A DNA stretch of 64,000 bases from Crambe crambe. Taxonomy: Eukaryota > Porifera > Demospongiae > Poecilosclerida > Crambeidae. The notes under the pieces are model-generated. The model was not told where the DNA came from. It was given only the letters and a program-made list of their open reading frames with translations, and searched no databases. Numbering within the stretch: the stretch's first letter is position 1; every line of letters starts with the position of its first letter. The translations under genes were made by a program, and so were the position numbers. The DNA is taken from positions 7,165,205 to 7,229,204 of the forward strand of contig OZ004588.1 in assembly GCA_963924555.1 (NCBI GenBank), written 5' to 3'. Of this stretch, positions 25,993 to 61,985 are shown one piece after another.

Positions 25993-26049
25993 CTATCGAA
26001 ACACAGACATGAACTAAAGATGATACAGTTGTTCAAAAAATTATTTTAC

Positions 26050-26491: not shown

Positions 26492-26557
26492 CTAGAGAAT
26501 CATATACACACGTGCATGTTATCAGTATGTAAGGCACCTATATATGATTATACGAAC

Positions 26558-30099: not shown

Positions 30100-30136
30100 C
30101 TTCCGATATTTCTTCTTTAGTGGGCACAGGTGGAGA
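30100..30136 (-). CDS. Copy B junction exon
   Basis: A 37-nt exon after gatcatgcag and before GTACAC, reading SPPVPTKEEISE plus one base. It starts in phase 0 and ends in phase 1, as in the other copies, and is two codons longer than in A and D. Confidence 0.65.
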
Positions 30137-33100: not shown

Positions 33101-36100
33101 CTGAAGGAACCAAATTCAGATCCATTCAGGATAATGGAGATATTGAAGGTATAGGAAAACAATCAGTGTGTAACAATGCTGAGATATGTCAGTTCAGAAT
33201 AACTTACACGCTGAAGGAAACAAATTCAGCATCCATTAAGATATTGAAGGTGTAAAAAAATAATCAGTATGGAATAATGGTGAGATGAGAAAGTCCTGAA
33301 TAACTTACATCCTGAAGGAACCAAATTCAGCATGGAGATATAGGAAAACAATCAGTGTGTAACAATACTGAGATGAGACAGTTCAGTATAACTTACATCC
33401 TGGAGGAACCCAATTCAGCATCCATGCAGGATAATCAAGATATCGAAGGTATATGAAAACAATCAGTGTATAATGATACTGAGATGAGACATGTTCAGAA
33501 TAACTTACATCCTGAAGGAACCAAATTCAGCATTCATTCAGGATAACAATGGTATAGGAAAACAATCAGTGTGTAACAATGCTTAGATATGTCAGTTCAG
33601 AATAACTTACACGCTGAAGGAAACAAATTCAGCATCCATTAAGATATTGAAGGTGTAAAAAAAATAATCAGTACGTAATAATGGTGAGATGAGAAAGTCC
33701 TGAATAACTTACAGACTGAAGGAACCAAATTCAGCATCATGCAATTCAGGATAATGGAGATATTGAAAACAATTAGTGTATTATAACTAACAATGCTGAG
33801 ACAAGAGAGTTTGAAATAACTTACAGGCTGACGAAACCCATTTCATCATCCAATCAGATTAATGGAGATATTGAAAACATGTAACAATGCTGAGATGAGA
33901 CAGTTCAGAATAACTTACAGACTGAAGGAACCAAATTCAGCATGGAGATATAGGAAAACAATCAGTGTGTAATAATGCTGAGATGAGTATAACTTACATC
34001 CTGCAGGAACCCATTTCAGCATCCATTCAGGAGATGGAAATATTGAAGGTATAGGAAAACAATCAGTGTGTAACGATACTGAGATGAGACAGTTCAGAAT
34101 AACTTACATACTGAAGGAACCCATTTCAGCATCCATTCAGGATAATGGAGATATCGAAGGTATAGGAAAACAATCAGTGTGTAACAATGCTGAGATGAGA
34201 CAGTTCAGAAGAACTTACATCCTGAAGGAACTAAATTCAGCATGGAGATATTGAAAAACAATCAGTGTATAACAATGTTGAGATGAGACAGTTCAGAATA
34301 ACTTACATTCTGAAGGAATCAAATTCAGCATGGATATATAGGAAAACAATCAGTGTGTAACAATGCTGAGATGAGACAGTTCAGTATAACTTACATCCTG
34401 GAGGAACCCAATTCAGCATCCATGCAGGATAATAAAGATATCGAAGGTACATGAAAACAATCAGTGTATAATGATACTGAGATGAGACATGTTCAGAATA
34501 ACTTACATCCTGAAGGAACCAAATTCAGCATCCATTCAGGATAACAAAGGTATAGGAAAACAATCAGTGTGTAACAATGCTGAGATGAGATGGTTCAGAT
34601 TAACTTACAGGCTGAAGGAACCCATTTCAGCAAGATATTGAAGGTATAGGGAAACAATCAGTGTATAACAATGCTGAGATGAGACAGTTCAGAATAACTT
34701 ACATCCTGAAGGAACCAAATTCAGGATAATGGAGATATTGAAGGTATAGGAAAACAATCAGTGTGTAACAATGCTTAGATATGTCAGTTCAGGATAACTT
34801 ACACGCTGAAGGAAACAAATTCAGCATCCATTAAGATATTGAAGGTGTAAAAAAATAATCAGTACGTAATAATGGTGAGATGAGAAAGTCCTGAATAACT
34901 TACAGACTGAAGGAACCAAATTCAGCATCATGCAATTCAGGATAATGGAGATATTGAAAACAATTAGTGTATTATAACTAACAATGCTGAGACAAGAGAG
35001 TTTGAAATAACTTACAGGCTGACGAAACCCATTTCATCATCCAATCAGATTAATGGAGATATTGAAAACATGTAACAATGCTGAGATGAGACAGTTCAGA
35101 ATAACTTACAGACTGAAGGAACCAAATTCAGCATGGAGATATAGGAAAACGATCAGTGTGTAATAATGCTGAGATGAGTATAACTTACATCCTGCAGGAA
35201 CCCATTTCAGCATCCATTCAGGAGATGGAAATATTGAAGGTATAGGAAAACAATCAGTGTGTAACGATACTGAGATGAGACAGTTCAGAATAACTTACAT
35301 ACTGAAGGAATCCATTTCAGCATCCATTCAGGATAATGGAGATATCGAAGGTATAGGAAAACAATCAGTGTGTAACAATGCTGAGATGAGACAGTTCAGA
35401 ATAACTTACATCCTGAAGGAACTAAATTCAGCATGGAGATATTGAAAAACAATCAGTGTATAACAATGTTGAGATGAGACAGTTCAGAATAACTTACATT
35501 CTGAAGGAATCAAATTCAGCATGGAGATAATAGGAAAACAATCAGTATGTAATAATGCTGAGATGAGACAGTTCAGTATAACTTACATCCTGGATGAACC
35601 CAATTCAGCATCCATTCAGGATAATAGAGATATCGAAGGTATTTGAAAACAATCAGTGTGTAACGATACTGAGATGAGACATGTTCAGAATAACTTACGT
35701 CCTGAAGGAACCCATTTCAGTATCCATTAAGATATTGAAGGTATAGGGAAACAATCAGTGCTGAGATGAGACAGTTCAGAATAACTTACATCCTGAAGGA
35801 ACCCATTTCAGTATCCATTCAGGATAATGAAGATATTGAATGTATAGGATAATGCTGAGATGAGACAGTTCAGAATAACTTACATCCTGAAGGAACCAAA
35901 TTCACAGGATAATAAGGTATATAAAAACAATCGATGCTGAAATGAGACGGTTCAGATTAACTTACATACTGAAGGAACCCATTTCAGCATGCATTCAGGA
36001 TAATGGAGATATCGAAGGTATAGGAAAACAATCGGTGTGTAACAATGCTGAGATGAGACAGTTCAGAATAACTTACATCCTGAAGGAACAAAATTCAGCA

Positions 36101-37275
36101 TGGAGATATTAAAAAACAATCAGTGTATAACAATGTTGAGATGAAACAGTTCAGAATAACTTACATTCTGAAGGAACCAAATTCAGCATGGAGATATAGG
36201 AAAACAATCAGTGTGTGACAATGCTGAGATGAGACAGTTCAGAATAACTTACATCCTGAAGGAGCCAAATTCAGCATCCATTCAGGATAATGGAGATATT
36301 GAAGGTATAGGAAAACAATCAGTGTGTAACAATGCTGAGATATGTCAGTTCAGAATAACTTACACGCTGAAGGAAACAAATTTAACATCCATTAAGATAT
36401 TGAAGGTGTAAAAAAACAATCAGTATGGAATAATGGTGAGATGAGAAAGTCCTGAATAACTTACAGACTGAAGGAACTAAATTCAGCATCCATTCAGGAT
36501 GATATATATAAATATAGAAAACAATCAGTGTGTAGAGATAAGGCAGTTCAGAATAACTTACACGCTGAAGGAACCCAATATTCAGAATCCATTCAGGATG
36601 ATTGAGGTATACGAAAACAATCAGTGTGTAACGATACTGTGATGAGACGGTTCATAATAACTTACATCCTGAAACAACCAAATTCAGCCGATAATGGATA
36701 GGGAAACAATCAATGTGTAACAACACTGAGATGAGATAGTTCAGAATAACTTACTTCCTGAAGAAGCCAAATTCAGCATCCAATCAGAATAATGAAGGTA
36801 GAGGAAAACAATCAGTGTGTAACAATGCTGAGACAAGACAATTCAGAATAACTTACATCCTGAAGGAACCAAATTCAAAATCCATTCAGAATATATAATG
36901 GAGATATTGAAGGTATAGGAAAACAATCAGTGGTATATGACACTGAGATGAGACAATTCAGAATAACTTACCCACTGAAGGAAGGATATGATGGAGATAT
37001 AGAAGGTATATGTGAAAATAATCAGTGTGTAACAATGCTGAGATGAGACAGTTCAGAATAACTTACATCCTGAAGGAACTATATTCAGCATCCATTCAGG
37101 ATAATGAAGATTTTTAAGGTATAGGAAAAAATTATCAGTGTGTAACGAGACAGTTCAGAATAACTTACATCCTGAATTAATCGAATTCAGTCAGGATGGA
37201 GGTATAGGAAAACAATCAGTGTGTAAGAATGCTGAGATGTGACAGTTCAGAATAACTTACACTCTAATTCAGTAG
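30190..37275 (-). repeat. Copy B array of ~72 single-codon microexon units
   Basis: About 72 units; the nearest triplet to the GTPase is at 30222-30224 and the farthest at 37261-37263. Units vary in length more than in A, C and D, but AG before and GT after the triplet are kept in all units I read. Asp (GAT or GAC) dominates, with Ser, Arg, Glu, Tyr, Pro, His, Asn and Trp, and single Ile, Leu and Val. No stop triplets. From about 32.5 kb onward the array matches copy 0, including the order of codons, so those two arrays are recent duplicates. An internal duplication of about 490 bp (30.78-31.2 and 31.27-31.7 kb) repeats the Ser-Arg-Asp-Glu block. Acceptors vary (cctgcag, cctccag) but always keep AG. 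Confidence 0.78.
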
Positions 37276-37859
37276 CCATTAGAAATTAATAATGCAAGAG
37301 TGAATGATCCATTCAGATGAAGATAGAAACAAAAATAAATAAATAAATAATGGTACTCTCATGCACTGTTAGAATATGTAATTTCAATAGGTGTGATCTA
37401 CCCTCCTTGTCATGACAACATTTGATAATCCGTACGGGTTCAAGGGTGAAGAAGTGGACCATTTCTCTAATGGCACCTGTGGTAGCAATTGCCTTGAAGT
37501 GCCTAAGGCTTGGCTTATTTTTTTAAATGCTGGAAGGAACCAGATGAATGGCCGCAACCTCTTAGCCTTGATCCATGGAGGCTATTCCATTGAAGAGCCT
37601 GATCCACGAGGCTAACCATTCACTTGAGTACTAGGACAGAAGCCATTAGATCTGTTGCTACAGCTGGCCAGTGCAGATTTGTGGAAACTACTTCAAGATG
37701 GTGCTGGAGTGAAGTCACACCCACACCCAATGGGTCTATAATTCAGGCCAATAGTGGTAGCTATGGTGACCACCAAAGGGAACCTGATAAATAGTGGCCA
37801 TGACATTTAGTCCTGGCCACAGGTTGACAGGTTAGCTATATTTAGTCATAAAAGCTCAC
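37276..37859. other. Intron between first exon and array, copy B
   Basis: Nearly identical to 4626-5203. It carries a short AATA repeat near 37335 and the duplicated 67-codon plus-strand frame. No gene was recognised. Confidence 0.45.
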
Positions 37860-37914
37860 CATCTTTCTTTCTCTGAGCCGTGGCGTAGTTTATTCACCTC
37901 AACACTTCCTTCCA
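37860..37914 (-). CDS. First coding exon, copy B (ATG as last codon)
   Basis: Same form as copies 0 and A: acceptor tactttttag, exon ending AAAGATG, donor GTGAGC. The ATG is at 37862-37860, leaving phase 0, and an in-frame stop lies upstream within the exon. Confidence 0.5.
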
Positions 37915-39949: not shown

Positions 39950-39998
39950 CTGTAGGTTGAAAGCATAAATTCTAGCCACCATACCACAATACTCTCAC

Positions 39999-40253
39999 CT
40001 TCCCTGATCCTCGTGGCAACCCCTGTGTGACCGACATCCTCTAGAGCTTTAGCTAAACTGGCCCAAGTGGGAGGTTGACTGATGTTATCATCTTCCCTCA
40101 ACCATGAAGCAACCATGTCTGCTGGAAGGTCCTTCATCCTTTTTAGGCGTGGATGGTTCAGTCCTAGTGCCCCACCCACTATCCTCAGATCTTCATCATT
40201 CAAGTCTTTTAATTCTTGAGTGACTACATTGTGGTCATCCATTGTTAGATGCT
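39999..40253 (-). CDS. Copy C death-domain exon
   Basis: A 255-nt exon after ctgtag and before GTGAGA. It encodes MDDHNVVTQELKDLNDEDLR, GGALGLNHPRLKRM, VASWLRE, PTWASLAKALEDVG and GVATRI. It differs from copy A at only a few residues, fitting the recent duplication of this part. Confidence 0.8.
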
Positions 40254-40447: not shown

Positions 40448-40880
40448 CCTTTTGTTGATCCTGATTGGGTCTCTGTAGAAAACATGCATGGTAACTGATA
40501 AAAGTATGACCAAAGATTATAACTTACTGAACTGCTGGCGTGTGATGATGATTCATATTTCTCTGTGAATTCTGAATATTTGACCCTAAAAGGATGAAGT
40601 GACATGAAGAAGTAGCTAGCTGTGGTTATAGTCTTTACTTTTCTGCCACTTCATGCATGTCAATGCACTCGAGATGGTGGATGAGGTAAGGATGAGGAGG
40701 GACTCCAATTTGCTCCATTTCTTTGATCCAGCGATCAATCAGTATCACCGGATCTTGAACTCGATGTGTTGTCATTTCCAAGGCATCTTTGAAATCAGCC
40801 AATTTCTGAGGATTTTCCTTAAGCTCTTTAGCAACACCATTAATCTCAGGAACTGATATTGGACCAGTGGAACCATGGAG
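40448..40880 (-). CDS. Copy C three linker exons
   Basis: 40639-40880 (242 nt), 40528-40585 (58 nt) and 40448-40472 (25 nt). The middle exon is one codon shorter than in A and more diverged (VKYSEFTEKYESSSHASSS). The last reads RPNQDQQK and has a strong donor GTAAGA. Phases match the other copies. Because divergence is higher here than in the flanking exons, gene conversion between copies is possible. Confidence 0.75.
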
Positions 40881-40936
40881 CTACAGGACCATAATACACA
40901 TGTAATGTGCACACACTTAACTAGGATTATACGAAC

Positions 40937-43005
40937 CTTGGGAATGGCTATTTTTAGCCAGTTTTTCTGATCTTTATTTAGTTCATATATCTTGTCCTCC
41001 TGACAACGTAAACACGACTTGGTGGTGTATTCTGACTTCAGGAGAACAAAATGCTCGGGAGTGTAGGGATTACTGGTTTTGCAGTGGTCACAGGAGAAAG
41101 CAAAGGCCATTTTGATTCCTGGAAACCATTGGCTGACTTGATCAGTGAAGCACCTTTGGACAGTGCCCATTACTTCCTGGCAAAGATCTGGGAATATTGG
41201 ATTGCCACTTTCTCGTGGTTTTTCACGCACTAAATCGATCTGAATAGAATGCTTGCATTCAGAAATAGTAAGTGTGTCTATGTTTGAACCAGATTGGCCC
41301 AGTGTGAAGGACACTCTATTTCTGTAGATGCCATGACCAAAGGCTATGTCGTAACCCTTCTCTGTAGAAAGAGCTGTAGCAAGTCGGGTGAAGAACCCTG
41401 GGGGAAGATATTTGATATCTGGGAATACCAAATGCAATGAAGCAGCTCTCCTTTCACAAGATGGAATATCAGTAGATGCACCATTTTGTGTAGCTGGAAG
41501 AGGAGGGAGTACAGAAGGAACAAAGTACTCTTTGCCCTTAAGATTGTGCACTTTGCCACGAGTGTTGACTGGCGCCACTATAAGGAAATGCTTTAAGAGG
41601 TCGACTATGGACTGAGGTGGCAAGCATGGATTAAGCTCATCTGCTGTAGAGGCTTTCCAAATTTCTACATAGAGTGCTTCAACAAGAATACCACAATTTC
41701 GGAGAATGTCCCACAATCTTGGTGCTCTCACTTTTTCGAAGCCTTCAAGAGCTAGAAGCTTGGCTATCTGCTTTATGAGCCACTGAGGGTCAGATATGAC
41801 TATAGAGCTTAAGCTGGGGATCTTGTCATAGTGAAGAAACACAGCAAGGTCGTGGTAAAACTTCAAGACACTGGGAACTGAATCTTTTGGGATGGTGCAG
41901 GCTTCTGCAACAGCTACCACTTCTTTCAACGTGAAATAAGGCTTGTTTTTAGCCATTCTACGCAACACCTTCCTGAAGAAAACCCATGTAAGAGGTGTAT
42001 CGACCTTCATTTCATTGTTGCAGGCAAAATCATTGACAATTTGGAGAACTCTTCTGTACCCAGGATCTGCATTCTCCCGCCCAGCTGTTGTGTTGTCGAT
42101 GATCACTCCTTTATCACGGACCAGGTGAGCATATTCTTTATCCTTGTACTTGGTATACAGCTTCTCGAGAATGCTATCTTTGTTAGCTCGTACAGTAGGA
42201 TCATCACCATGGGTACCAACAGGCAAGATACGAGGATATTCAGGCATTTTAGTGATGCTTTCATTGGCACTTTTGTCAGTGAGAGTGGCATCAATGCAAG
42301 ACATCCATTGCAGAAGGAGCTCTATCGTACTTTGCTCCAGAACTTGCTGTGTGGCATGACCTTGATAGTGAGAAAGGGATAAGCATCGCTCGTGTAGATC
42401 CTTTCGAGCATCAAACATGAGGAAGAACATGGACTTTGATGTTAGAAAGGCTGGCAGGATGCAGAGAAAGACTTGTTGGCCACCACAATCCCACACATAC
42501 AGGAACACTTCAGATTCAGGTGCTTGGATTTCAGGATGTTGCTTGGCTAGTTCAATGATTTCTTCTATGATCTTCTGAGCTTCAGATATTTCGGGGCTAC
42601 TTCTTGTACGAGAGAGATGTGATGCTGCCAAAGCAATTCCTACTTGGATCCATTTTACCACTCGCAATGACTCAGTTTCTCCACTACTTACATCGTATAC
42701 CAGACGCACTAGTCCAACCAGTTCATTAGTTTCGTCATCTTCAGTGACTGGCACCCAATACTCTCCACTAACACTTCCACCTTTTGCTGTGTGCGTGCTG
42801 ACGTCCCTTGAGGCCCCACTTCGTCCAGGTTGGAAAGTGCTGAGGTCAGCCATTTGAGTGCTGTTAACATTAGCTTCATCTGGAAGTGGTTTGTTCATCA
42901 TTCCACGCTGGAAACTGCTCTTGCCTACTCCTCCAGCACCAAGGTGCACGATGCGTGCATAAGCCACACTGACTACACCACTCTTCAATGCTTCCCTGTA
43001 GTTGG
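40937..43005 (-). CDS. Copy C Roc-COR-like GTPase exon
   Basis: A 2069-nt exon (689 codons) between acceptor tgttatgtag and the donor after CCCAAG. P-loop GAGGVGKSS, WDCGGQQ, VGTHGDD, the COR-like region and the CDHC...C group are all present. The linker is short (TQNGASTDIPSCERR) and lacks the Ser/Pro repeats of copy A. One codon is missing near TAGRENAD compared with TAGQGENAD elsewhere. The frame is open, and the motifs look fit for nucleotide binding. Confidence 0.85.
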
Positions 43006-43463: not shown

Positions 43464-43500
43464 CTTCCAAAATTTCTTCTTCAGTGGGTTCATGTAGAGG
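43464..43500 (-). CDS. Copy C junction exon
   Basis: A 37-nt exon after cttcatgcag and before GTACAC, reading PLHEPTEEEILE plus one base. It starts in phase 0 and ends in phase 1. Confidence 0.68.
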
Positions 43501-43517: not shown

Positions 43518-43721
43518 AAAAATATTTTGGGGCAATGAAGGGTAGGAAAACAATTAGTATTTGATAATACACTGATTGTTTTCCTACCTTTAATATCTCC
43601 ATCATCCTGAATGGATGCTGAATTTGGTTCCTTCAGGGTGTAAGTTATTCTGAACTGTCTTATCTCAGCATTATCAAATACTAATTGTTTTCCTACCCTT
43701 CATTGCCCCAAAATATTTTTA
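43518..43721. repeat. Foldback: ~51-bp inverted arms around one flipped repeat unit
   Basis: The left arm (43518-43568) and right arm (43670-43721) are near-perfect inverted copies of one another. Between them lies one repeat unit in the opposite orientation to the rest of array C. In the flipped unit the AG, GGT and GTAAGT signals are on the plus strand, so it cannot contribute a microexon to the minus-strand gene. The junction sequence of arm 1 matches the array end in copy D (near 54330-54360), so the flip is specific to copy C. Confidence 0.85.
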
Positions 43722-43724
43722 TAG

Positions 43725-46700
43725 GCATAGGAAAACAATCAGTGTGTAACAATGCTGAGATGAGACAGTTCAGAATAACTTACAAACTGAAGGTACCAAA
43801 TTCAGCATCCATTCAGGATAATAGAGATATTGAAGGCATAGGAAAACAATCAGTGTGTAACAATGCTGAGATGAGACAGTTCAGGATAACTTACCAGCTG
43901 AAGGAACCAAATTCAGCATCCGTTCAGGATAATGGAGATATCGAAGGTATAGGAAAACAATCAGTGTGTAACAATGCTGAGATGAGACAGTTCAGAATAA
44001 CTTACATTCTGAAGGAACCAAATTCAGCATCCGTTCAGGATGATGGAGATATTGAAGGCATAGGAAAACAATCAGTGTGTAACAATGCTGAGATGAGACA
44101 GTTCAGGATAACTTACCAGCTGAAGGAACCAAATTCAGCATCCGTTCAGGATAATGGAGATATTGAAGGTATAGGAAAACAATCAGTGTGTAACAATGCT
44201 GAGATGAGACAGTTCAGAATAACTTACTTTCTGAAGGAACCAAATTCAGCATCCGTTCAGGATAATGGAGATATTGAAGGCATAGGAAAACAATCAGTGT
44301 GTAACAATGCTGAGATGAGACAGTTCAGAATAACTTACAGACTGAAGGTACCAAATTCAGCATCCATTCAGGATAATGGAGATATTGAAGGCATAGGGAA
44401 AAAATCAGTGTGTAACAATGCTGAGATGAGACAGTTCAGAATAACTTACAACCTGAAGGAACCAAATTCAGCATCCGTTCAGGATAATGGAGATATTGAA
44501 GGCATAGGAAAACAATCAGTGTGTAACTATGCTGAGATGAGACAGTTCAGAATAACTTACAGCCTGAAGGAACCAAATTCAGCATCCGTTCAGGATAATG
44601 GAGATATTGAAGGTATAGGAAAACAATCAGTGTGTAACAATGCTGAGATGAGACAGTTCAGAATAACTTACTTTCTGAAGGAACCAAATTCAGCATCCGT
44701 TCAGGATGATATTGAAGGCATAGGAAAACAATCAGTGTGTAACAATGCTGAGATGGGACAGTTCAGAATAACTTACAAACTGAAGGTACCGAATTCAGCA
44801 TCCATTCAGGATAATGGAGATATTGAAGGCATAGGAAAACAATCAGTGTGTAACAATGCTGAGATGAGACAGTTCAGAATAACTTACAGTCTGAAGGAAC
44901 CAAATTCAGCATCCGTTCAGGATGATGGAGATATTGAAGGCATAGGAAAACAATCAGTGTGTAACAATGCTGGGATGAGACAGTTCAGAATAACTTACCC
45001 ACTGAAGGAACCAAATTCAGCATCCGTTCAGGATAATGGAGATATTGAAGGCATAGGAAAACAATCAGTGTGTAACAATGCTGAGATGAGACAGTTCAGA
45101 ATAACTTACTTTCTGAAGGAACCAAATTCAGCATCCGTTCAGGATAATGGAGATATTGAAGGCATAGGAAAACAATCAGTGTGTAACAATGCTGAGATGA
45201 GACAGTTCAGAATAACTTACAGACTGAAGGTACCAAATTCAGCATCCATTCAGGATAATGGAGATATTGAAGGCATAGGGAAAAAATCAGTGTGTAACAA
45301 TGCTGAGATGAGACAGTTCAGAATAACTTACAACCTGAAGGAACCAAATTCAGCATCCGTTCAGGATAATGGAGATATTGAAGGCATAGGAAAACAATCA
45401 GTGTGTAACTATGCTGAGATGAGACAGTTCAGAATAACTTACAGCCTGAAGGAACCAAATTCAGCATCCGTTCAGGATAATGGAGATATTGAAGGTATAG
45501 GAAAACAATCAGTGTGTAACAATGCTGAGATGAGACAGTTCAGAATAACTTACTTTCTGAAGGAACCAAATTCAGCATCCGTTCAGGATGATATTGAAGG
45601 CATAGGAAAACAATCAGTGTGTAACAATGCTGAGATGGGACAGTTCAGAATAACTTACAAACTGAAGGTACCGAATTCAGCATCCATTCAGGATAATGGA
45701 GATATTGAAGGCATAGGAAAACAATCAGTGTGTAACAATGCTGAGATGAGACAGTTCAGAATAACTTACAGTCTGAAGGAACCAAATTCAGCATCCGTTC
45801 AGGATAATGGAGATATTGAAGGCATAGGAAAACAATCAGTGTGTAACAATGCTGGGATGAGACAGTTCAGAATAACTTACCCACTGAAGGAACCAAATTC
45901 AGCATCCGTTCAGGATAATGGAGATATTGAAGGCATAGGAAAACAATCAGTGTGTAACAATGCTGAGATGAGACAGTTCAGAATAACTTACTTTCTGAAG
46001 GAACCAAATTCAGCATCCGTTCAGGATAATGGAGATATTGAAGGCATAGGAAAACAATCAGTGTGTAACAATGCTGAGATGAGACAGTTCAGAATAACTT
46101 ACAGACTGAAGGTACCAAATTCAGCATCCATTCAGGATAATGGAGATATTGAAGGCATAGGAAAACAATCAGTGTGTAACAATGCTGAGATGAGACAGTT
46201 CAGAATAACTTACAACCTGAAGGAACCAAATTCAGCATCCGTTCAGGATAATGGAGATATTGAAGGCATTGGAAAACAATCAGTGTGTAACAATGCTGAG
46301 ATGAGACAGTTCAGAATAACTTACAGACTGAAGGAACCAAATTCAGCATCCGTTCAGGATAATGGAGATATTGAAGGCATAGGAAAACAATCAGTGTGTA
46401 ACAATGCTGAGATGAGACAGTTCAGAATAACTTACAGACTGAAGGTACCAAATTCAGCATCCATTCAGGATAATGGAGATATTGAAGGCATAGGAAAACA
46501 ATCAGTGTGTAACAATGCTGAGATGAGACAGTTCAGAATAACTTACAACCTGAAGGAACCAAATTCAGCATCCGTTCAGGATAATGGAGATATTGAAGGC
46601 ATAGGAAAACAATCAGTGTGTAACAATGCTGAGATGAGACAGTTCAGAATAACTTACAGACTGAAGGAACCGAATTCAGCATCCGTTCAGGATAATGGAG

Positions 46701-47200
46701 ATATTGAAGGTATAGGAAAACAATCAGTGTGTAACAATGCTGAGATGAGACAGTTCAGAATAACTTACTTTCTGAAGGAACCAAATTCAGCATCCGTTCA
46801 GGATAATGTAGATATTGAAGGTATAGGAAAACAATCAGTGTGTAACAATGCTGAGATAAGACAGTTCAGAATAACTTACTTCCTGAAGGAACCAAATTCA
46901 GCATCCGTTCAGGATAATGGAGATATTGAAGGCATAGGAAAACAATCAGTGTGTATAACAATGCTGAAATGAGACAGTTCAGAATAACTTACAATCTGCA
47001 TCCATTCAGGATAATGGAGATATTGAAGGTATAGGAAAACAATCAATGCTGAGATGAGACAGTTCAGAATAACTTACCCACTGAAGGAACCAAATTCAGC
47101 ATCCATTCAGGATAATGGAGATATTGACGGTATAGGAAAACAATAGGTATTTAACAATAGCTACTTAGTTCAGACTAACTTACTGTCTGAAAGAACCAGA
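43725..47200 (-). repeat. Copy C array of ~32 single-codon microexon units
   Basis: About 32 highly uniform 111-bp units; nearest triplet 43784-43786, farthest 47184-47186. Codons: 6 Lys, 6 Ser, 4 Val, 3 Phe, 3 Trp, 3 Thr, 2 Ala, 2 Leu and single Asn, Glu and Ile, with no stops. A block of eight units (44331 to about 45215) is repeated in tandem (45216 to about 46095) with the same order of eight codons. Because 111 is a multiple of three and the plus strand has no stop in this frame, a spurious plus-strand frame of 1095 codons runs through it. In gene-strand phase 0 the intron-like part has TGA about 15 codons after the triplet, so reading without splicing would stop. Confidence 0.82.
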
Positions 47201-47676
47201 AATAATGATTGTATAGGGTTAATGATCCATTCATATAATAGGAAAAAATAAATTATCTCATTAACATGAATATCCATTTCACATGGTGTTTTTATTGGTA
47301 TGGTGCTGAACAGTGTGAGTACTAATTATGGAACTCATAACTGTCAATAACTTAGGGATGATAAATAAAATGGCTTTTGATTAATCCATAGAAATCTCAG
47401 GGTCCTTACAGACTGTGGCCATTCATCAAGACATTCATCTCAAAATGAAATAGGAAGTATTGTTATGTTTAATGAGTTAACTGCTAGTGGTAGCATTGTA
47501 TACAAAAATTGTTTACTACTTGACCCTTGACTTAGCTCTTGCAGCTTGATAATTATAAGAATGCTGAGTCAGCCATATTGGATAAACTCTTAACTGCATG
47601 CTTCATGAGAACTGAGTGGTATCAGATCGTAAGAAATAAAAATATGGTCTCTGTTAGCTTTGTTGCAATGCTACAG

Positions 47677-48197: not shown

Positions 48198-48261
48198 CAG
48201 CTTCTTCTCTTGTCTTTCAGCCATGGTAGCAACTAGCTTGTCACCTCAACAACTTGTTCCA
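48198..48261 (-). CDS. First coding exon, copy C
   Basis: Acceptor cttattcttctag at the right, then a 37-nt untranslated part, then ATG (48224-48222) and nine codons MAERQEKKL before donor GTGAGC. It ends in phase 0, matching the phase-0 microexons and junction exon. The context around the ATG (GCTACCATGG) is a strong Kozak-like start. Another untranslated exon probably lies upstream. Confidence 0.68.
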
Positions 48262-49440
48262 CTAGAAGAATAAGAGTTGCAAGCTAAGCAAAGTCACTCT
48301 GAAAGCAAGAAATCTCGGAACCCATTATCAACCTGTAAGAGACCTCCCTGGTGATCTTCAAATTAGTTATCCTTTGAGCTGTAGTTTTCAGATGCATGTC
48401 CTTATTAGCTAATGTGGGAGTGTTATTTTACATACACTCTGTCAGGAGCCTCACTATTCTACGGAACAAATGAAACAGAACGGTTCCGAGACCCTATTTC
48501 ATATGGAATTTCACTGCGCATGTACAGGAGCATCCCTGATTAGTAGCACCTGTGTGTGCATATTGGAGAATCAAGGAATAATGCTGAAGATTTAAGATTC
48601 TAAGCATACAAGGTCTTAGGAGGTAATATTGAGCGACAACTTTACTACATTTTGCATGCATGACACATCAACTTGATGATCTAATGGCTGCAGAGCAGCT
48701 AACCTTCTTTAGAAAGAGCATTTTCTCTGTTAGCTAACTCTTTACTATAAACACCAGGAAACAAGTAATAGGTACCTAACATGATGCTATACAAAATTCA
48801 CTAGCATTATAATTTTAATAACTTCAAAAAAAATCTGCACAGGGCCAGAAAGCTAGATTTCGAGTGTTGTATACTCCTATCATGTGCACAAACTAGTTTA
48901 CAGCCAAGTATACAAACCAAGTATACAAGAGTATACCAAGTATATGAACCAAGTATACAAGAGTATACCAAGTATATGAACCAAGTATACAAGAGTATAC
49001 CAAGTATATGAACCAAGTATACAAGAGTATACCAAGTATACAAACCAAGTATACAAGAGTATACCAAGTATATGAACCAAGTATGCAAGAGTATACCAAG
49101 TATATGAACCAAGTATACAAGAGTATACCAAGTATATGAACCAAGTATACAAGAGTTAACCACATGTACACTCAAGTTTACACCAAAGTATACAGTACAT
49201 AGCAGAGAATGTTCGAATACCACTTATTTCAGAGAGCACGTAAAGTTCTCAATGACAAGACAGTGCATTACACACTTTTACCATCTTAATTGTGCATGCG
49301 CATAAGCTTGTGCATTGAAAATTCTGTTTATGAAATAGGATCCTGGAACCATTCCGTTCTGTTCCGTTCCATGGAATGAGGCCCAAACTCAGCAAGTATA
49401 TGGAAGGGGAGGAGTTTTACACCCCTCTAGTTCGCTTGCT
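48262..49440. other. Spacer between units C and D
   Basis: Holds likely 5' sequence of copy C, then a minisatellite (48903-49155) and a microsatellite. Minus-strand frames of 84-138 codons through the minisatellite are repeat artefacts. No gene was recognised. Confidence 0.4.
48903..49155. repeat. 32-bp minisatellite
   Basis: About eight copies of a 32-bp unit made of CCAAGTATACAAGAGTATAC followed by CAAGTATATGAA, with point differences. Confidence 0.9.
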
Positions 49441-51679: not shown

Positions 51680-51745
51680 CTAGAGAATCATATACACATG
51701 TGCATGTTATCAATATGTAAGGCACCTATATATGATTATACGAAC

Positions 51746-53811
51746 CTTGAAAATGGCTATTTTTAGCCAGTTTTTCTGATCATTATTTAGTTCGTATATC
51801 TTGTCCTCCTGGCAGCGTAAACACGACTTGGTGGTGTATTCTGAATCCAGGAGAACTAAATGCTCGGGAGCCGGAGTGTGGGGATTACTGATTTTGCACT
51901 GGTCACAGGAAAAAGCAAAGGCCATTTTGATACCAGGGAACCATTGGCTGACTTGATCAGTGAAGCACCTTTGGATAGTGACAATTACTTTCTGACAAAG
52001 ATCAATGAATATTGGGTTGCCACTTTCTCGTGGTTTTTCACGTACAAAATCGATCTGCACAGAATGCTTGCATTCAGAAATAGTCAGTGTGTCTATCTTT
52101 GAACCAGATTGACCCAGTGTGAAAGACACTCTATTTCTGTAGATGCCATGACCAAAGGCTATGCTATAGCCCTTCTCTGTAGAAAGAGCTGTGGCCAGTC
52201 GAGTGAAGAACCCTGGGGGCAGATATTTGATATCTGGGAATACCAAATGCAATGGAGCAGCTCTCCTTTTAAGGGATGGAATATCAGTAGATACACCATT
52301 TTGTGTAACTGGAAGAGGAGGGAGTACAGAAGGAACAAAGTACTCTTTGCCCTTGAGATTATGCACTTTGCCACGAGTGTTGACTGGTGCCACTATAAGG
52401 AAATGCTTTAAGAGGTCAACTATGGACTGAGGTGGCAAGGGATCAAGCTCATCTGCTGTAGAGGCTTTCCATATTTCTGCATAGAGTGCTTCAACAAGAA
52501 TGCCACGATTTCTGAGAATGTCCCACAATCTTGGTGCTCCTTCTTTTTCAAAGCCTTCAAGAGCTAGAAGCTTGGCTATCTGCTTTATGAGCCACTGAGG
52601 GTCAGCTATGACTATAGAGCTTAAGCTGGGGATCTTGTCATAGTGAAGAAACACAGCAAGGTCGTGATAAAATTTCAAGACACTGGGAACTGAATCTTCG
52701 GGGATGGTGCAGGCTTCTGCAACTGCTACCACTTCTTTCAACGTGACATAGGGCTTGTTTTTAGCCATTCTACGCAACACCTTCCTGAAGAGAACCCATG
52801 TAAGAGGTGTATCGACCTTCACTTCATTGCTGCAAGCAAAATCATTGACAATTTGGAGAACTCTTCTGTACCCAGGATCAGCATTCTCTCCTTGCCCAGC
52901 TGTTGTGTTGTCAATGATCACTCCTTTCTCACGGACCAGGTAAGCATAATCTTTATCCTTGTACTCGGTGTACAGCAGCTCAAGAATCCTCTCTTTGTTA
53001 ACTTGTACAGTAGGATCATCACCATGGGTACCAACAGGCAAGATACGAGGATATTCAGGCATTTTAGTGATGCTTTCATTGGCATTTTTGTCAGTGAGAG
53101 TGGCATCGATGCAAGACATCCATTGCAGAAGGAGCTCTATCGTACTTTGCTCCAAAACTTGCTGTGTGGCATGACCTTGATGATGAGATAGGGATAAGCA
53201 TCGCTCGTGTAGATCTTTTCGAGCATCGAACATGAGAAAGAACATGGACTTCGATGTTAGAAAGGCTGGCAAGATGCAGAGAAAGACTTGCTGACCACCA
53301 CAATCCCACACATACAGGAACACTTCAGATTCAGGTGCTTGGATTTCAGGATGCTGCTTGGCTAATTCTATGATTTCTTCTATAATCCTTTGAGCTTCAG
53401 ATATTTCTGGGCTACTTCTCGTATGAAAGAAATGTGATATTGCAAAAGCTTGGATCCATTTTACAAAACGTGATGATTCAGTTTCTCCATGTCTTACATC
53501 ATATACCAGACGCACTAGCCCAACCAGTTCATTAGTTTCATCATCTTCAGTGACCGGCACCCAATACCCTCCACTAACACTTCCACCCTTTGCTGTATGC
53601 GTGCTGACGTCCCTTGAGGCCCCACCTTGTCCAGGTTGGAAAGTGCTGAGGTCAGCCATTTGAGTGCTGTTAACATTAGCTTCATCTGGAAGTGGTTTGT
53701 TCATCATTCCACGCTGGAAACTGCTCTTGCCTACTCCTCCAGCACCAAGGTGCACGATGCGTGCATAAGCCACACTGACTACACCACTCTTCAATGCTTC
53801 CCTGTAGTTGG
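51746..53811 (-). CDS. Copy D Roc-COR-like GTPase exon
   Basis: A 2066-nt exon (688 codons) between acceptor tgttgtgtag and the donor after TTCAAG. P-loop GAGGVGKSS, WDCGGQQ, VGTHGDD, the COR-like region and a CDQC...C group are present. Small in-frame deletions after FVKWIQ and in the ELDPLPPQS region set it apart from the others. The linker is short (TQNGVSTDIPSLKRR). The open frame and kept motifs suggest an active gene. Confidence 0.85.
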
Positions 53812-54253: not shown

Positions 54254-54284
54254 CTTCCTTAATTTCTTCTTCAGTTGGTGGAGG
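54254..54284 (-). CDS. Copy D junction exon
   Basis: A 31-nt exon after cttcatgtag and before GTACAT, reading PPPTEEEIKE plus one base. It starts in phase 0 and ends in phase 1. Confidence 0.68.
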
Positions 54285-54334
54285 CTACATGAAGACAGGA
54301 TAACCATTTTGGGCAATGAAAAGTGAGAGTATAG

Positions 54335-57300
54335 GAAAACAATTAGTATTTGATAATGTTGAGATGAGACAGTTCAGAATAACTTACAACCTGAAGGAAC
54401 CAAATTCAGCATCCGTTCAGGATAATGGAGATATTGAAGGTATAGGAAAACAATCAGTGTGTAACAATGCAGAGATGAGACAGTTAAGAATAACTTACTT
54501 TCTGAAGGAACCAAATTCAGCATCCGTTCAGAATAATGGAGATATTGAAGGTATAGGAAAACAATCAGTGTGTAACAATGCAGAGATGAGACAGTTAAGA
54601 ATAACTTACTTTCTGAAGGAACCAAATTCAGCATCCGTTCAGAATAATGGAGATATTGAAGGTATAGAAAAACAATCAGTGTGTAACAATGCTGAGATGA
54701 GACAGTTCAGAATAACTTACAAACTGAAGGAACCAAATTCAGCATCCGTTCAGGATAATGGAGATATTGAAGGTATAGAAAAACAATCAGTGTGTAACAA
54801 TGCTGAGATGAGACAGTTCAGAATAACTTACAGGCTGAAGGAACCAAATTCAGCATCCGTTCAGGATAATGGAGATATTGAAGGTATAGGAAAACAATCA
54901 ATGCTGAGATGAGACAGTTCAGAATAACTTACAGGCTGAAGGAACCAAATTCAGCATCCGTTCAGGATAATGGAGATATTGAAGGTGTAGGAACAATCAG
55001 TGTGTAACAATGCTGAGATGAGACAGTTCAGAATAACTTACAGGCTGAAGGAACCAAATTCAGCATCCGTTCAGGATAATGGAGATATTGAAGGTATAGG
55101 AAAACAATCAGTGTGTAATAATGCTGAGATGAGACAGTTCAGAATAACTTACATCCTGAAGGAACCAAATTCAGCATCCGTTCAGGATAATGGAGATATT
55201 GAAGGTATAGGAAAACAATCAATGCTGAGATGAGACAGTTCAGAATAACTTACAGGCTGAAGGAACCAAATTCAGCATCCGTTCAGGATAATGAAGATAT
55301 TAAGGTGTAGGAAACAATCAGTGTGTAACAATGCTGAGATGAGACAGTTCAGAATAACTTACATACTGAAGGAACCAAATTCAGCATCCGTTCAGAATGG
55401 AGATATTGAAGGTATAGGAAAACAATCAGTGTGTAACAATGCTGAGATGAGAGAGTTCAGAATAACTTACATCCTAAAGGAACCAAATTCAGCATCCGTT
55501 CAGGATAATGGAGATATTGAAGGTATAGGAAAACAATCAGTGTGTAACAATGCTGAGATGAGACAGTTCAGAATAACTTACATCCTGAAGGAACCAAATT
55601 CAGCATCCATTCAGGATAATGGAGATATTGAAGGTATAGGAAAACAATCAGTGTGTAACAATGCTGTTATGAGACAGTTCAGAATAACTTACAGGCTGAA
55701 AGAACCAAATTCATTATCCATTCAGGATAATGTGAAGGTGTAGGAAAACAATCAGTGTGTAATAATGCTGCAGTTCAGAATAACTTACAGGCTGAAGGAA
55801 CCAAATTCAGCATCCGTTCAGGATGATGGAGATATTGAAGGTATAGGAAACAATCAGTGTGTAACAATGCTGAGATGAGACAGTTCAGAATAACTTACAG
55901 GCTGAAGGAACCAAATTCAGCATCCGTTCGGGATAATGAAGATATTGAAGGTGTAGGAAACAATCAGTGTGTAACAATGCTGAGATGAGACAGTTCAGAA
56001 TAACTTACAGACTGAAGGAACCAAATTCAGCATCCGTTCAGGATAATGAAGATATTGAAGGTGTAGGAAATAATCAGTGTGTAACAATGCTGAGATGAGA
56101 CAGTTCAGAATAACTTACATACTGAAGGAACCAAATTCAGCATCCGTTCAGAATAATGGAGATATTGAAGGTATAGGAAAACAATCAGTGTGTAACAATG
56201 CTGAGATGAGAGAGTTCAGAATAACTTACATCCTGAAGGAACCAAATTCAGCATCCGTTCAGGATAATGGAGATATTGAAGGTATAGGAAAACAATCAGT
56301 GTGTAATAATGCTGAAATGAGACAGTTCAGAATAACTTACAATCTGCGTCCATTTAGGATAATGGAGATATTGAAGGTATAGGAAAACAATCAGTGTGCA
56401 ACAATGCTGAGATGAGACAGTTCAGAATAACTTACAGGCTGAAAGAACCAAATTCATTATCCATTCAGGATAATGTGAAGGTGTAGGAAAACAATCAGTG
56501 TGTAACAATGCTGAGATGAGACAGTTCAGAATAACTTACAGGCTGAAGGAACCAAATTCAGCATCCGTTCAAGATGATGGAGATATTGAAGGTATAGGAA
56601 AACAATCAGTGTGTAACAATGCTGAGATGAGACAGTTCAGAATAACTTACAGGCTGAAGGAACCAAATTCAGCATCCGTTCAGGATAATGGAGATATTGA
56701 AGGTGTAGGAAAACAATCAGTGTGTAACAATGCTGAGATGAGACAGTTCAGAATAACTTACATACTGAAGGAACCAAATTCAGCATCCGTTCAGAATAAT
56801 GGAGATATTGAAGGTATAGGAAAACAATCAGTGTGTAACAATGCTGAGATGAGACAGTTCAGAATAACTTACAGACTGAAGGAATTAAATTCAGCATCCG
56901 TTCAGGATAATGGAGATATTGAAGGTGTAGGAAACAATCAGTGTGTAACAATGCTGAGATGAGACAGTTCAGAATAACTTACAGACTGAAGGAATTAAAT
57001 TCAGCATCCGTTCAGGATAATGGAGATATTGAAGGTGTAGGAAACAATCAGTGTGTAACAATGCTGAGATGAGACAGTTCAGAATAACTTACATACTGAA
57101 GGAACCAAATTCAGCATCCGTTCAGAATAATGGAGATATTGAAGGTATAGGAAAACAATCAGTGTGTAACAATGCTGAGATGAGATAACTTACATCCTGA
57201 AGGAACCAAATTCAGCATCCGTTCAGGATAATGAAGGTGTAGGAAACAATCAGTGTGTAATATTGAAGGTGTAGGAAACAATCAGCGTGTAACAATGCTG

Positions 57301-60300
57301 AGATGAGACAGTTCAGAATAACTTACAGGCTGAAAGAACCAAATTCATTATCCATTCAGGATAATGTGAAGGTGTAGGAAAACAATCAGTGTGTAACAAT
57401 GCTGAGATGAGACAGTTCAGAATAACTTACAGGCTGAAGTAACCAAATTCAGCATCCGTTCAGGATGATGGAGATATTGAAGGTATAGGAAAACAATCAG
57501 TGTGTAACAATGCTGAGATGAGACAGTTCAGAATAACTTACAAGCTGAAGGAACCAAATTCAGCATCCGTTCAGGATGATGGAGATATTGAAGGTATAGG
57601 AAAACAATCAGTGTGTAACAATGCTGAGATGAGACAGTTCAGAATAACTTACAGGCTGAAGGAACCAAATTCAGCATCCGTTCAGGATAATGGAGATATT
57701 GAAGGTATAGGAAAACAATCAGCACGTAACAATGCTGAGATGAGACAGTTCAGAATAACTTACAGACTGAAGGAACTAAATTCAGCATCCGTTCAGGATA
57801 ATGAAGATATTGAAGGTGTAGGAAACAATCAGTGTGTAACAATGCTGAGATGAGACAGTTCAGAATAACTTACATACTGAAGAACCAAATTCAGCATCCG
57901 TTCAGAATAATGGAGATATTGAAGGTATAGGAAAACAATCAGTGTGTAACAATGCTGAGATGAGGCAGTTCAGAATAACTTACATCCTGAAGGAACCAAA
58001 TTCAGCATCCGCACAGGATAATGGAGATATTGAAGGTATAGGAAAACAATCAGTGTGTAACAATGCTGAGATGAGACAGTTCAGAATAACTTACAGGCTG
58101 AAAGAACCAAATTTATCATCCATTCAGGATAATGTGAAGGTGTAGGAAAACAATCAGTGTGTAACAATGCTGAGATGAGACAGTTCAGAATAACTTACAT
58201 CCTGAAGGAACCAAATTCAGCATCCGTTCAGGATAATGGAGATATTGAAGGTATAGGAAAACAATCAGTGTGTAACAATGCGATGAGATAACTTACATCC
58301 TGAAGGAACCAAATTCAGCATCCGTTCAGGATAATGGATATGTTGAAGGTGTAGAAAAACAATCAGTGTGTAACAATGCTGAGACGAGACAGTTCAGAAT
58401 AACTTACAGGCTGAAGCAACCAAATTCAGCATCCGTTCAGGATAATGAAGGTGTAGGAAACAATCAGTGTGTAACAATGCTGAGATGAGACAGTTCAGAA
58501 TAACTTACAGGCTGAAAGAACCAAATTCATTATCCATTCAGGATAATGTGAAGGTGTAGGAAAACAATCAGTGTGTAACAATGCTGAGATGAGACAGTTC
58601 AGAATAACTTACAGGCTGAAGGAACCAAATTCAGCATCCGTTCAGGATGATGGAGATATTGAAGGTATAGGAAAACAATCAGTGTGTAACAATGCTGAGA
58701 TGAGAGAGTTCAGAATAACTTACAGGCTGAAGGAACCAAATTCAGCATCCGTTCAGGATAATGGAGATATTGAAGGTATAGGAAAACAATCAGTGTGTAA
58801 CAATGCTGAGATGAGATAACTTACATCCTGAAGGAACCAAATTCAGCATCCATTCAGGATAATGGATATGTTGAAGGTGTAGAAAAACAATCAGTGTGTA
58901 ACAATGCTGAGATGAGACAGTTCAGAATAACTTACAGGCTGAAGCAACAAAATTCAGCATCCGTTCAGGATAATGAAGGTGTAGGAAACAATCAGTGTGT
59001 AACAATGCTGAGATGAGACAGTTCAGAATAACTTACAGGCTGAAAGAACCAAATTCATTATCCATTCAGGATAATGTGAAGGTGTAGGAAAACAATCAGT
59101 GTGTAACAATGCTGAGATGAGACAGTTCAGAATAACTTACAGGCTGAAGGAACCAAATTCAGCATCCGTTCAGGATGATGGAGATATTGAAGGTATAGGA
59201 AAACAATCAGTGTGTAACAATGCTGAGATGAGACAGTTCAGAATAACTTACAGGCTGAAGGAACCAAATTCAGCATCCGTTCAGGATAATGGAGATATTG
59301 AAGGTATAGGAAAACAATCAGCGTGTAACAATGCTGAGATGAGACAGTTCAGAATAACTTACAGACTGAAGGAACTAAATTCAGCATCCGTTCAGGATAA
59401 TGAAGATATTGAAGGTGTAGGAAACAATCAGTGTGTAACAATGCTGAGATGAGACAGTTCAGAATAACTTACATACTGAAGAACCAAATTCAGCATCCGT
59501 TCAGAATAATGGAGATATTGAAGGTATAGGAAAACAATCAGTGTGTAACAATGCTGAGATGAGGCAGTTCAGAATAACTTACATCCTGAAGGAACCAAAT
59601 TCAGCATCCATACAGGATAATGGAGATATTGAAGGTATAGGAAAACAATCAGTGTGTAACAATGCTGAGATGAGACATTTCAGAATAACTTACAGGCTGA
59701 AAGAACCAAATTTATCATCCATTCAGGATAATGTTGTGAAGGTGTAGGAAAACAATCAGTATGTAACAATGCTGAGATGAGACAGTTCAGAATAACTTAC
59801 ATCCTGAAGGAACCAAATTCAGCATCCGTTCAGGATAATGGAGATATTGAAGGTATAGGAAAACAATCAGTGTGTAACAATGCTGAGATGAGATAACTTA
59901 CATCCTGAAGGAACCAAATTCAGCATCCGTTCAGGATAATGGATATGTTGAAGGTGTAGAAAAACAATCAGTGTGTAACAATTCTGAGATGAGACAGTTC
60001 AGAATAACTTACAGGCTGAAGCAACCAAATTAAGCATCCGTTGAGGATAATGAAGGTGTAGGAAACAATCAGTGTGTAACAATGCTGAGATGAGACAGTT
60101 CAGAATAACTTACAGGCTGAAAGAACCAAATTCATTATCCATTCAGGATAATGTAAAGGTGTAGGAAAACAATCAGTGTGTAACAATGCTGAGATGAGAC
60201 AGTTCAGAATAACTTACAGGCTGAAGGAACCAAATTCAGCATCCGTTCAGGATGATGGAGATATTGAAGGTATAGGAAAACAATCAGTGTGTAACAATGC

Positions 60301-61985
60301 TGAGATGAGACAGTTCAGAATAACTTACAGGCTGAAGGAACCAAATTCAGCATCCGTTCAGGATAATGGAGATATTGAAGGTATAGGAAAACAATCAGCG
60401 TGTAACAATGCTGAGATGAGACAGTTCAGAATAACTTACAGACTGAAGGAACTAAATTCAGCATCCGTTCAGGATAATGAAGATATTGAAGGTGTAGGAA
60501 ACAATCAGTGTGTAACAATGCTGAGATGAGACAGTTCAGAATAACTTACATACTGAAGAACCAAATTCAGCATCCGTTCAGAATAATGGAGATATTGAAG
60601 GTATAGGAAAACAATCAGTGTGTAACAATGCTGAGATGAGGCAGTTCAGAATAACTTACATACTGAAGGACCAAATTCAGCAACCATACAGGATAATGGA
60701 GATATTGAAGGTATAGGAAAACAATCAGTGTGTAACAATGCTGAGATGAGACATTTCAGAATAACTTACAGGCTGAAAGAACCAAATTTATCATCCATTC
60801 AGGATAATGTGAAGGTGTAGGAAAACAATCAGTGTGTAACAATGCTGAGATGAGACAGTTCAGAATAACTTACATCCTGAAGGAACCAAATTCAGCATCC
60901 GTTCAGGATAATGGAGATATTGAAGGTATAGGAAAACAATCAGTGTGTAACAATGCTGAGATGAGATAACTTACATCCTGAAGGAACCAAATTCAGCATC
61001 CGTTCAGGATAATGGATATGTTGAAGGTGTAGAAAAACAATCAGTGTGTAACAATTCTGAGATGAGACAGTTCAGAATAACTTACAGGCTGAAGCAACCA
61101 AATTCAGCATCCGTTCAGGATAATGAAGGTGTAGGAAACAATCAGTGTGTAACAATGCTGAGATGAGACAGTTCAGAATAACTTACAGGCTGAATGAATC
61201 AAATTCAACATCCATTCAGGATAATGGAGATATTGAAGGTATAGGAAAATAATCAGTGTGTAACAATGCTGAGATGAGACAGTTCAGAATAACTTACAGG
61301 CTGAAGGAACCAAATTCAGCATCCGTTCAGGATAATGAAGATATTGAAGGTGTAGGAAACAATCAGTGTGTAACAATGCTGAGATGAGACAGTTCAGAAT
61401 AACTTACATACTGAAGGAACCAAATTCAGCATCCGTTCAGAATAATGGAGATATTGAAGGTATAGGAAAACAATCAGTGTGTAACAATGCTGAGATGAGA
61501 GAGTTCAGAATAACTTACATCCTGAAGGAACCAAATTCAGCATCCGTTCAGGATAATGGAGATATTGAAGGTGTAAAAAAACAATCAGTGTGTAACAATG
61601 CTGAGATGAGACAGTTCAGAATAACTTACACGCTGAAGGAACCAAATTAAGCATCCATTCAGGATAATGGAGATATTGAAGGTATAGGAAAACAATCAGT
61701 GTGTAACAGTGTTGAGATGAGACAGTTCAGAATAACTTACATGCTGAAGGAACCAAATTCAGCATCCGTTCAGGATAATGGAGATATTGAAGGTGTAGGA
61801 AACAATCAGTGTGTAACAATGCTGAGATGAGACAGTTCAGAATAACTTACACGCTGTAGGAACCAAATTCAGCATCCGTTCAGGATAATGGAGATATTGA
61901 AGGTATAGGAAAACAATCAGTGTGTAACAATAGCTACTGAGTTCAGAATAACTTACTTCCTGAAGGAACCAGAAATAATGATTGT
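54335..61985 (-). repeat. Copy D array of ~71 single-codon microexon units
   Basis: About 71 units; nearest triplet 54388-54390, farthest 61957-61959. Codons: 31 Pro, 15 Asp, 9 Tyr, 6 Ser, 2 Lys, 2 Arg and single Val, Phe, Ile, Leu, His and Glu, with no stops. A higher-order block of about ten units (~1.08 kb) is repeated around 57.3-61.0 kb, with codon order Pro, Pro, Pro, Pro, Ser, Tyr, Asp, Pro, Asp, Asp (reading the plus strand left to right) and small changes. Several units have lost ~14 bp next to the donor-distal part of the intron (reading gagatgagataacttac) yet keep AG-NNN-GTAAGT. If all units are spliced in, the N-terminus would be a Pro/Asp/Tyr-rich tract of about 70 residues. Confidence 0.82.

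Follow-up and report, generated by a model that had tools for sequence, protein, structure and literature searches.

Tandem arrays of putative one-codon exons in Roc-COR genes of the sponge Crambe crambe

Introduction

How is a tandem repeat to be read when its most variable part is a triplet lying exactly between an acceptor-like AG and a donor-like GT? The question is raised by a stretch of 64,000 nucleotides from the sponge Crambe crambe (assembly GCA_963924555.1, contig OZ004588.1, positions 7,165,205 to 7,229,204), which we refer to as the window. On the minus strand of the window there are five arrays of a tandem repeat of about 110 bp, with 289 units in total. In our analysis it is probable that each array is a coding segment made of one-codon exons and repeat-derived introns of about 108 nt, which would be spliced into an N-terminal peptide in front of a Roc-COR protein. 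The evidence for this reading is given below together with the alternatives that have to be weighed against it.

Results

The arrays were named A–E after the five neighbouring genes. All coordinates are window positions, and genes and open frames lie on the minus strand unless the plus strand is indicated. The repeat regions cover positions 54329–61990 (array A, 71 units), 43725–47240 (array B, 32 units), 30190–37300 (array C, 72 units), 11135–18400 (array D, 67 units) and 1–4700 (array E, 47 units inside the window, the array being cut by the window start). On the gene strand a unit reads ...GCTGAATTTGGTTCCTTCAG-NNN-GTAAGTTATTCTGAACTG..., where the triplet is preceded by AG and followed by GT in 289/289 units and the gap between the two is always exactly 3 bases. 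A stricter motif scan gave 279 donor-like sites. Specifically, 269 of them have the long acceptor motif, all at a spacing of 3, and 10 are without it. One of these ten lies outside the arrays; the other nine are array units whose acceptor region is damaged or unrelated but in which AG still stands exactly 3 nt before GT. The strict core pattern CAGNNNGTAAGT matches 286 times when both strands are counted, while 100 dinucleotide shuffles gave 0.42 matches on average and 3 at maximum. All 284 matches on the minus strand belong to array units, and the remaining five units deviate from the pattern at a single base. Two matches are on the plus strand, one of which, a stray match at 62506, is situated outside the arrays.

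Units are 111 bp apart in 108 of 284 intervals (range 57–133), and the array introns are 54–130 nt long with a median of 107. Column entropy is 0 at the AG and at the GTA, the fifth intron base is likewise invariant, and the other flank columns shown have 0.03–1.1 bit. The three triplet positions have entropies of 1.88, 1.75 and 0.76 bits, the third base being T in 247/289 units. Non-consensus bases make up 7.3% of the flanks on average (102 well-filled columns) and 0% at AG and GTA. The donor core GTAAGT is nearly uniform, since +4 matches in 287/289 and +6 in 288/289 units. No second GTAAG is present in any of the 284 array introns, the AG-free run before the acceptor has a median length of 77 nt as compared to 20 in shuffled introns, and a branch-point-like A is found 15 nt upstream in 241/284 introns.

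These data bear on what a first-pass annotation of the window had described. Its five arrays of about 289 units, each with a triplet framed by splice sites, were recovered as stated. The proposed 111-bp unit is the modal spacing but far from a fixed length, and the flanks are strictly constant at AG and GTA but not over their whole extent. The statement that all three bases of the triplet change is incorrect: two positions are hypervariable and the third is a near-fixed T, which yields when the amino acid requires it.

A hairpin of the form UUCAG-NNN-GUAAGUUAUU-CUGAA, which would expose the donor, was also considered. It folds on the consensus, but pairing over the 289 units equals the expectation for independent positions. 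The hairpin model is further weakened by the absence of an arm in some of 45 aligned units. It was rejected.

If the triplets are exons, they should look like codons. None of the 289 is a stop codon, although 14.3 stops are expected from intron trinucleotides and 5.0 when the observed third bases are taken into account. Only 22 distinct codons are used across the arrays. Where the encoded amino acid has a T-ending codon, that codon is chosen in 247 of 256 cases, as compared to 925/2319 (40%) in the body frames of four genes. There are 42 triplets with another third base, and 33 of these (GAA 17, AAA 9, TGG 7) encode amino acids without a T-ending codon. T-ending triplets make up 68/71 of array A, 19/32 of B, 62/72 of C, 54/67 of D and 44/47 of E. 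The Lys/Glu/Gln boxes contain 26/30 of the A-ending triplets versus 85/247 of the T-ending ones (p 3.7e-8). The TG box is always TGG, with 7/9 of the G-ending triplets and TGT in 0/247 (p 2.7e-12). After collapse to 220 distinct five-codon contexts the two tests give p 1.7e-6 and 9.4e-9, and it is important to note that all these p values are generous, as the units are related by duplication even after the collapse. An AG inside a triplet could act as a competing acceptor; it occurs in 2 triplets versus 16.9 expected. Cys, Met and Gln are absent from all 289 array codons.

The codon-like behaviour bears directly on the explanation that AG-NNN-GT only subdivides a long intron, as a recursive-splicing ratchet or as satellite DNA, and that the triplets are left untranslated. 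In ratchet points, too, the acceptor adjoins the donor (PMC8605326). A ratchet point, however, is a zero-length exon with AG abutting GT, whereas here three coding bases lie between them in 289/289 units. If the triplet were untranslated, there would be no reason for stop codons to be avoided, for the third base to stay T, or for it to change just where the amino acid calls for another base. We therefore regard this explanation as very unlikely.

The arrays also lie in the right phase for translation. In gene B the first coding exon (48198–48224, MAERQEKKL) has an in-frame stop upstream and ends in phase 0 at GTGAGC. It is followed by the array at 43784–47186, with triplets from 47184–47186 down to 43784–43786, and by a junction exon (PLHEPTEEEILE plus 1 nt, 43464–43500) that starts in phase 0 after ATGCAG. 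The body of gene B (40775–43005, Roc PF08477 and COR-A PF16095) is delimited by the TAG acceptor and by the stop codon that closes the frame, which need not be the true 3′ end of the exon. Gene A has a first coding exon at 63082–63111 (MAERRQEERP) that ends in phase 0; its start was placed by analogy with gene B because no in-frame stop is present within 20 codons upstream. Its 71 one-codon exons (54388–61959) precede a junction exon with a phase 0 start (PPPTEEEIKE plus 1 nt, 54254–54284) and a body with Roc and COR-A, counted from REALK on (51713–53803). In genes C, D and E the start codon (37860–37862, 19044–19046 and 5204–5206, respectively) has an in-frame stop upstream and is directly followed by the donor GTGAGC, and therefore the first coding exon would give Met only. 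Gene C continues with 72 one-codon exons (30222–37263), the junction exon SPPVPTKEEISE plus 1 nt (30100–30136) and a Roc and COR-A body from REALK on (26525–28621). Gene D has 67 one-codon exons (11190–18357), the junction exon PPPTEEKILE plus 1 nt (11063–11093) and a body of the same kind from REALK on (8342–10609). In gene E there are 47 one-codon exons within the window (72–4611), and the junction exon lies beyond it. The phase is 0 on both sides of the array in genes A–D, and their junction exons end in phase 1 and continue after a TAG acceptor into the body frame A(N/D)YREALKSG.... Because of the invariance of AG and GT, the amino-acid-aware third base, the lack of stops and phase 0 at both ends, the reading of the triplets as codons in one-codon exons is supported by tests internal to the sequence.

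Roc (PF08477) and then COR-A (PF16095), the order of domains found in Roco proteins, score above the Pfam cut-off in 4/4 bodies within the window. The bodies are about 90% identical to each other. Their dN/dS is 0.25–0.36 and dS 0.13–0.17 in 6/6 pairs, with the last 40 codons dropped, and therefore the genes are maintained. A Pro/Ser-rich stretch is inserted in the body of gene D (8964–9071 and around); it contains a 51-bp tandem duplication and by eye is absent from the other three bodies. The first-pass annotation had predicted a body of Roc-COR and death domain. The Roc-COR part agrees with the Pfam result, and the death domain is not established. Specifically, Pfam gave no hit at E<=10 in 3/3 downstream stretches tested, and the putative death-fold-like stretch of gene B is at 39994–40242. 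The downstream death-fold-like exon has a predicted six-helix model of moderate confidence (mean pLDDT 70.4), for which Foldseek ranks 1–5 are death-fold chains, none of them significant (E of 0.7 or worse), and helix-turn-helix proteins follow close behind. Beyond the body of gene C the death-fold-like stretch occurs twice on the downstream side (23922–24326 and 25691–26032).

The opposite strand might also code. A frame on the plus strand is open for 1095 codons at 43685–46972 with one variable codon per repeat, as it would be in a 37-residue repeat protein with a single variable residue. An open frame of this kind is, however, expected from a stop-free 111-nt unit repeated at 93% identity. 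The spacing is a multiple of 3 in 141/284 intervals, so that the frame breaks in the other arrays. The third positions of the four triplet-nearest codons, which overlap the splice signals, are changed in 0–0.7% of the units, and this is the reverse of what coding would give. We attach next to no weight to a plus-strand protein.

What keeps the triplets variable and their third base constant? In the 2844 unit pairs with flank divergence of 0–2%, the first and the second codon position each differ in 67% of cases, as much as in distant units. In these close pairs the fourfold degenerate third bases differ in 4.2% (1272 pairs with both codons fourfold). When the flanks are 3.8, 7.8, 14.7 and 24.8% apart, the fourfold third bases differ in 9.3, 13.2, 4.9 and 14.0% and positions 1–2 in 65–73%. 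The fourfold third bases thus exceed the flank divergence in the closer bins and fall below it in the wider ones, and they are far under positions 1–2 throughout. Over all units the fourfold third base is T in 135/141 and changed in 6/141 (4.3%), while positions 1 and 2 are non-consensus in 64% and 55%.

The saturation of codon positions 1–2 beside a stable fourfold third base is, as we read it, a mark of amino-acid selection and not of hypermutation. The pattern fits a founding NNT unit that was duplicated, with introns homogenised or conserved and strong selection on the amino acid. Neutral drift of a satellite was rejected, as it would shift all three codon positions together, unlike the observed pattern. 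In diversity-generating retroelements and in targeted hypermutation the variable codon is mutated regardless of the coding effect. Such a process should strike the third base too and was likewise rejected in view of the T that is kept at fourfold sites. It can also be noted that the flanks of arrays A, B and D are 6.8–8.0% divergent from each other, about half of the synonymous divergence of the bodies (16–17%), and therefore the array introns are conserved or homogenised across paralogues.

Recent events are visible as duplications of multi-unit blocks. There are 23 such blocks, with intron divergence of 1.1% and triplet changes at 12/447 positions (2.7%). Arrays C and E are nearly identical: 35/4301 intron sites (0.8%; 45 aligned introns) and 4/135 triplet bases differ, one of the latter changes being synonymous and the other three belonging to one triplet at the alignment edge. 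These two arrays also differ by insertions and deletions of whole codons.

Could the repeats instead be introners, that is copies of a mobile intron that settled at the codon boundaries of a pre-existing exon? Near-identical introns at many positions are known from introners, and introners that add codons have been reported (PMC9860276); here, too, near-identical introns stand beside unrelated codons. As some introner families have no target-site duplications (PMC9860276), the weight of the test was put on codon usage. An older exon should have 40% of T-ending codons, as the bodies have, and not 96%, and one would not expect introners to have entered at each codon boundary and always in one phase. 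Identity of adjacent codons, a signature of duplication, is raised in arrays A and D (shuffle P 0.016 and 0.0015) and lowered in B, C and E. No intronless copy of the array peptides was found in the six frames of the window, where there are 12 five-residue matches and the longest contiguous match is 6 residues in a stop-rich frame. Codon usage and the strict spacing of 3 nt agree with tandem duplication of a unit composed of one intron and one codon and not with insertion, and we consider introners highly improbable.

Read as codons in genomic order, array A spells ERHRDYPPPDDPYYSPPPPDDPDYSPPPPDPPPPDDPDYSPLPPDYSSYPPPIDYSPPPDDYPDPPPFKKV, beginning with ERHRDYPPPDDPYYSPPPP and ending with DPPPFKKV. 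The 32 codons of array B spell TWIEKSVSSVSKWTFKAVSKWTFKAVSKLNLF. Array C gives SDDWDEDRSRDNDYDDDDNDYDSPSRDPDDNDYDSPSRDDDRDYVDSWDEDNEHDWDEDRSREDRSHLHIHP, beginning with SDDWDEDRSRDNDYD and ending with SHLHIHP, array D gives GNLSSLLEARRRLEEEARLEEEARRHSSHLKSASAERRAATYTATPFVSEVSHDDLHSSHSLLSLSS, beginning with GNLSSLLEARRRLEEEARLEEEARRHSS, and array E, truncated by the window, is a near-copy of array C. The composition is array-specific and redundant: 31/71 codons of array A are Pro, and the effective number of amino acids is 5.2–10.0.

This redundancy bears on the number of codons that enter one transcript. In Dscam1 one exon is chosen per transcript from a cluster of alternatives, and a comparable choice of a single microexon here would change one residue of the protein. 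Near-identical units would compete for the same partners. Moreover, an inverted copy of one array unit is situated in the intron before the junction exon of gene B (43569–43702, plus strand, with CAGGGTGTAAGT at 43634–43645), flanked by inverted-repeat arms (43518–43568 and 43670–43722) that are identical over 51 bp. The RNA of the inverted unit could pair with any array unit. A tolerant scan of the window found, however, only this one inverted unit, and the other genes are without it. In Dscam-like clusters of mutually exclusive exons the alternatives are non-redundant, while the many Pro codons of array A would be pointless in a choice of one out of n. A choose-one library is thus very improbable.

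Joining a variable subset of the one-codon exons, in genomic order, is harder to set aside. Combinatorial splicing of this kind would give very many N-terminal peptides per gene, which could serve as a diversity or identity tag. With units that are all symmetric (3 nt, phase 0), the frame is preserved whichever subset is joined, and the schistosome micro-exon genes (MEGs), which have very small symmetrical exons, are described as producing pools of similar proteins by alternative splicing (PMC4350168). The redundant composition speaks against it, as does the donor, which is nearly the same in all units and shows no graded weakening. In our estimate combinatorial splicing is possible but doubtful. 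A concatenated, linker-like peptide suits the redundant and array-specific composition, and a one-of-n library does not. The first-pass annotation had placed a library of one-codon exons between an N-terminal exon and the body; the microexons agree with our tests, and a library is less likely than a concatenated peptide.

Two further elements were noticed in the window. Open frames at 20258–21655 are likely to belong to a retroelement, and the frame tested (20874–21470) matches reverse transcriptase (PF00078). A minisatellite of 32 bp, CCAAGTATATGAACCAAGTATACAAGAGTATA, is present in about 8 copies at 48904–49156.

Discussion

Our results on the arrays of C. crambe suggest the following course of events. 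Splicing would connect the first exon, which codes for MAER... in genes A and B and consists of the start codon alone in C, D and E, with the microexons, and the last microexon with the junction exon. The Roc-COR part would thereby receive an N-terminal extension of 32–72 residues. The genomic order of the codons is probably kept, with most or all of them included, and composition is what favours full over partial inclusion. Splicing itself, its order and the role of the peptide are what we infer from the DNA. Each unit may be spliced by intron definition. An exon of 3 nt should be too short for U1 and U2AF to bind on its two sides at once, and because they would collide, adjacent introns are probably excised at different times. 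Either the upstream exon would be lengthened codon by codon, or alternate introns would be removed first. The peptide may be a fast-evolving linker or an interaction region.

The same architecture would let the peptide change without loss of the frame. As the exons are 3 nt long and in phase 0, the gain, loss or skipping of any unit should keep the frame. An array that grows or shrinks by duplication of whole units or blocks would alter the protein by one residue or by one block, and selection on the amino acid would alter codon positions 1–2 while the intron is retained. More broadly, and with somewhat less assurance than for the coding segment as such, we favour the view that a satellite-like repeat has been turned into a device that writes a protein codon by codon, in which unequal exchange adds, removes or shuffles single residues in frame, the N-terminal region written by 32–72 successive exons is under strong diversifying selection, and subsets chosen per transcript may tag the Roc-COR protein.

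Several points weigh against the reading of the arrays as spliced one-codon exons. The array introns are copies of one repeat, and regularities that run through the introns are therefore not independent observations. The fourfold third bases do not match the intron rate perfectly (4.2 versus 1.4%, 9.3 versus 3.8% and 13.2 versus 7.8% when compared with the flanks in the closer bins). Purifying selection on the order of codons was not demonstrated in the 23 blocks or in the comparison of arrays C and E, because triplets changed slightly more than introns in the blocks and at 4/135 versus 35/4301 sites between C and E. To splice 3-nt exons by the dozen, one after another, would place high demands on the mechanism. 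Tiny exons may interfere with spliceosome binding (PMC4674806), and 5′ splice sites close to a newly formed junction are reported to be repressed by the exon junction complex (PMC6224609). Finally, no relative for a test of conservation was found in the collections of viral and prokaryotic contigs scanned. The array motifs had 0 matches in viral and 0 in prokaryotic contigs; the body-protein pattern had none in viral contigs and 54 in prokaryotic contigs, none of which encodes a relative. The lack of viral and prokaryotic relatives is not surprising because the gene is animal-like.

How do the arrays compare with known systems of very small exons? The exons of schistosome MEGs are several codons long. 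The same is true of the aphid bicycle and megacycle genes, whose introns are not tandem copies of one unit. The likeness lies elsewhere: very small symmetrical exons make up most of the coding region of schistosome MEGs, which evolve rapidly and change their peptides without loss of the frame (PMC4350168). The arrays are built in this way (289/289 exons of 3 nt), but the gene as a whole is not, as the body frame exceeds 2 kb. In contrast to schistosome MEGs, all array exons here are 3 nt long, a single tandem repeat supplies the array introns, and a Roc-COR protein follows the array. The aphid bicycle and megacycle genes have many small exons of uniform phase, more than 100 microexons in one gene, and fast evolution (PMC9168663). 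Their exons are in phase 2 (PMC9168663), whereas the array exons described here are single codons in phase 0. That exons of 1–3 nt can be spliced at all is known from isolated cases, e.g. the 1-nt exon of Arabidopsis APC11 (PMC4674806). Such exons occur singly, unlike the tandem arrays of 32–72 found here.

One-codon exons in a tandem intron repeat are absent from the parts of the descriptions of MEGs, bicycle and megacycle genes, isolated microexons and introners on which we draw. No tandem array of 3-nt exons was found among the titles and starts of abstracts listed in the literature searched; most subscription papers and all preprints lie outside that literature, and the result is not proof of absence.

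If transcripts confirm the proposed structure, the arrays would represent a new gene architecture, in which a region of a protein has one exon per amino acid. The spliceosome would then join dozens of consecutive 3-nt exons, and this would be a challenge to both exon- and intron-definition models. The arrays would also offer a way for a tandem repeat to acquire new coding sequence one residue after another and free of frameshifts, and their synonymous sites would act as an internal control against which selection can be seen. Exons of this kind will probably be overlooked by standard annotation, and similar arrays may therefore be present, unrecognised, elsewhere.

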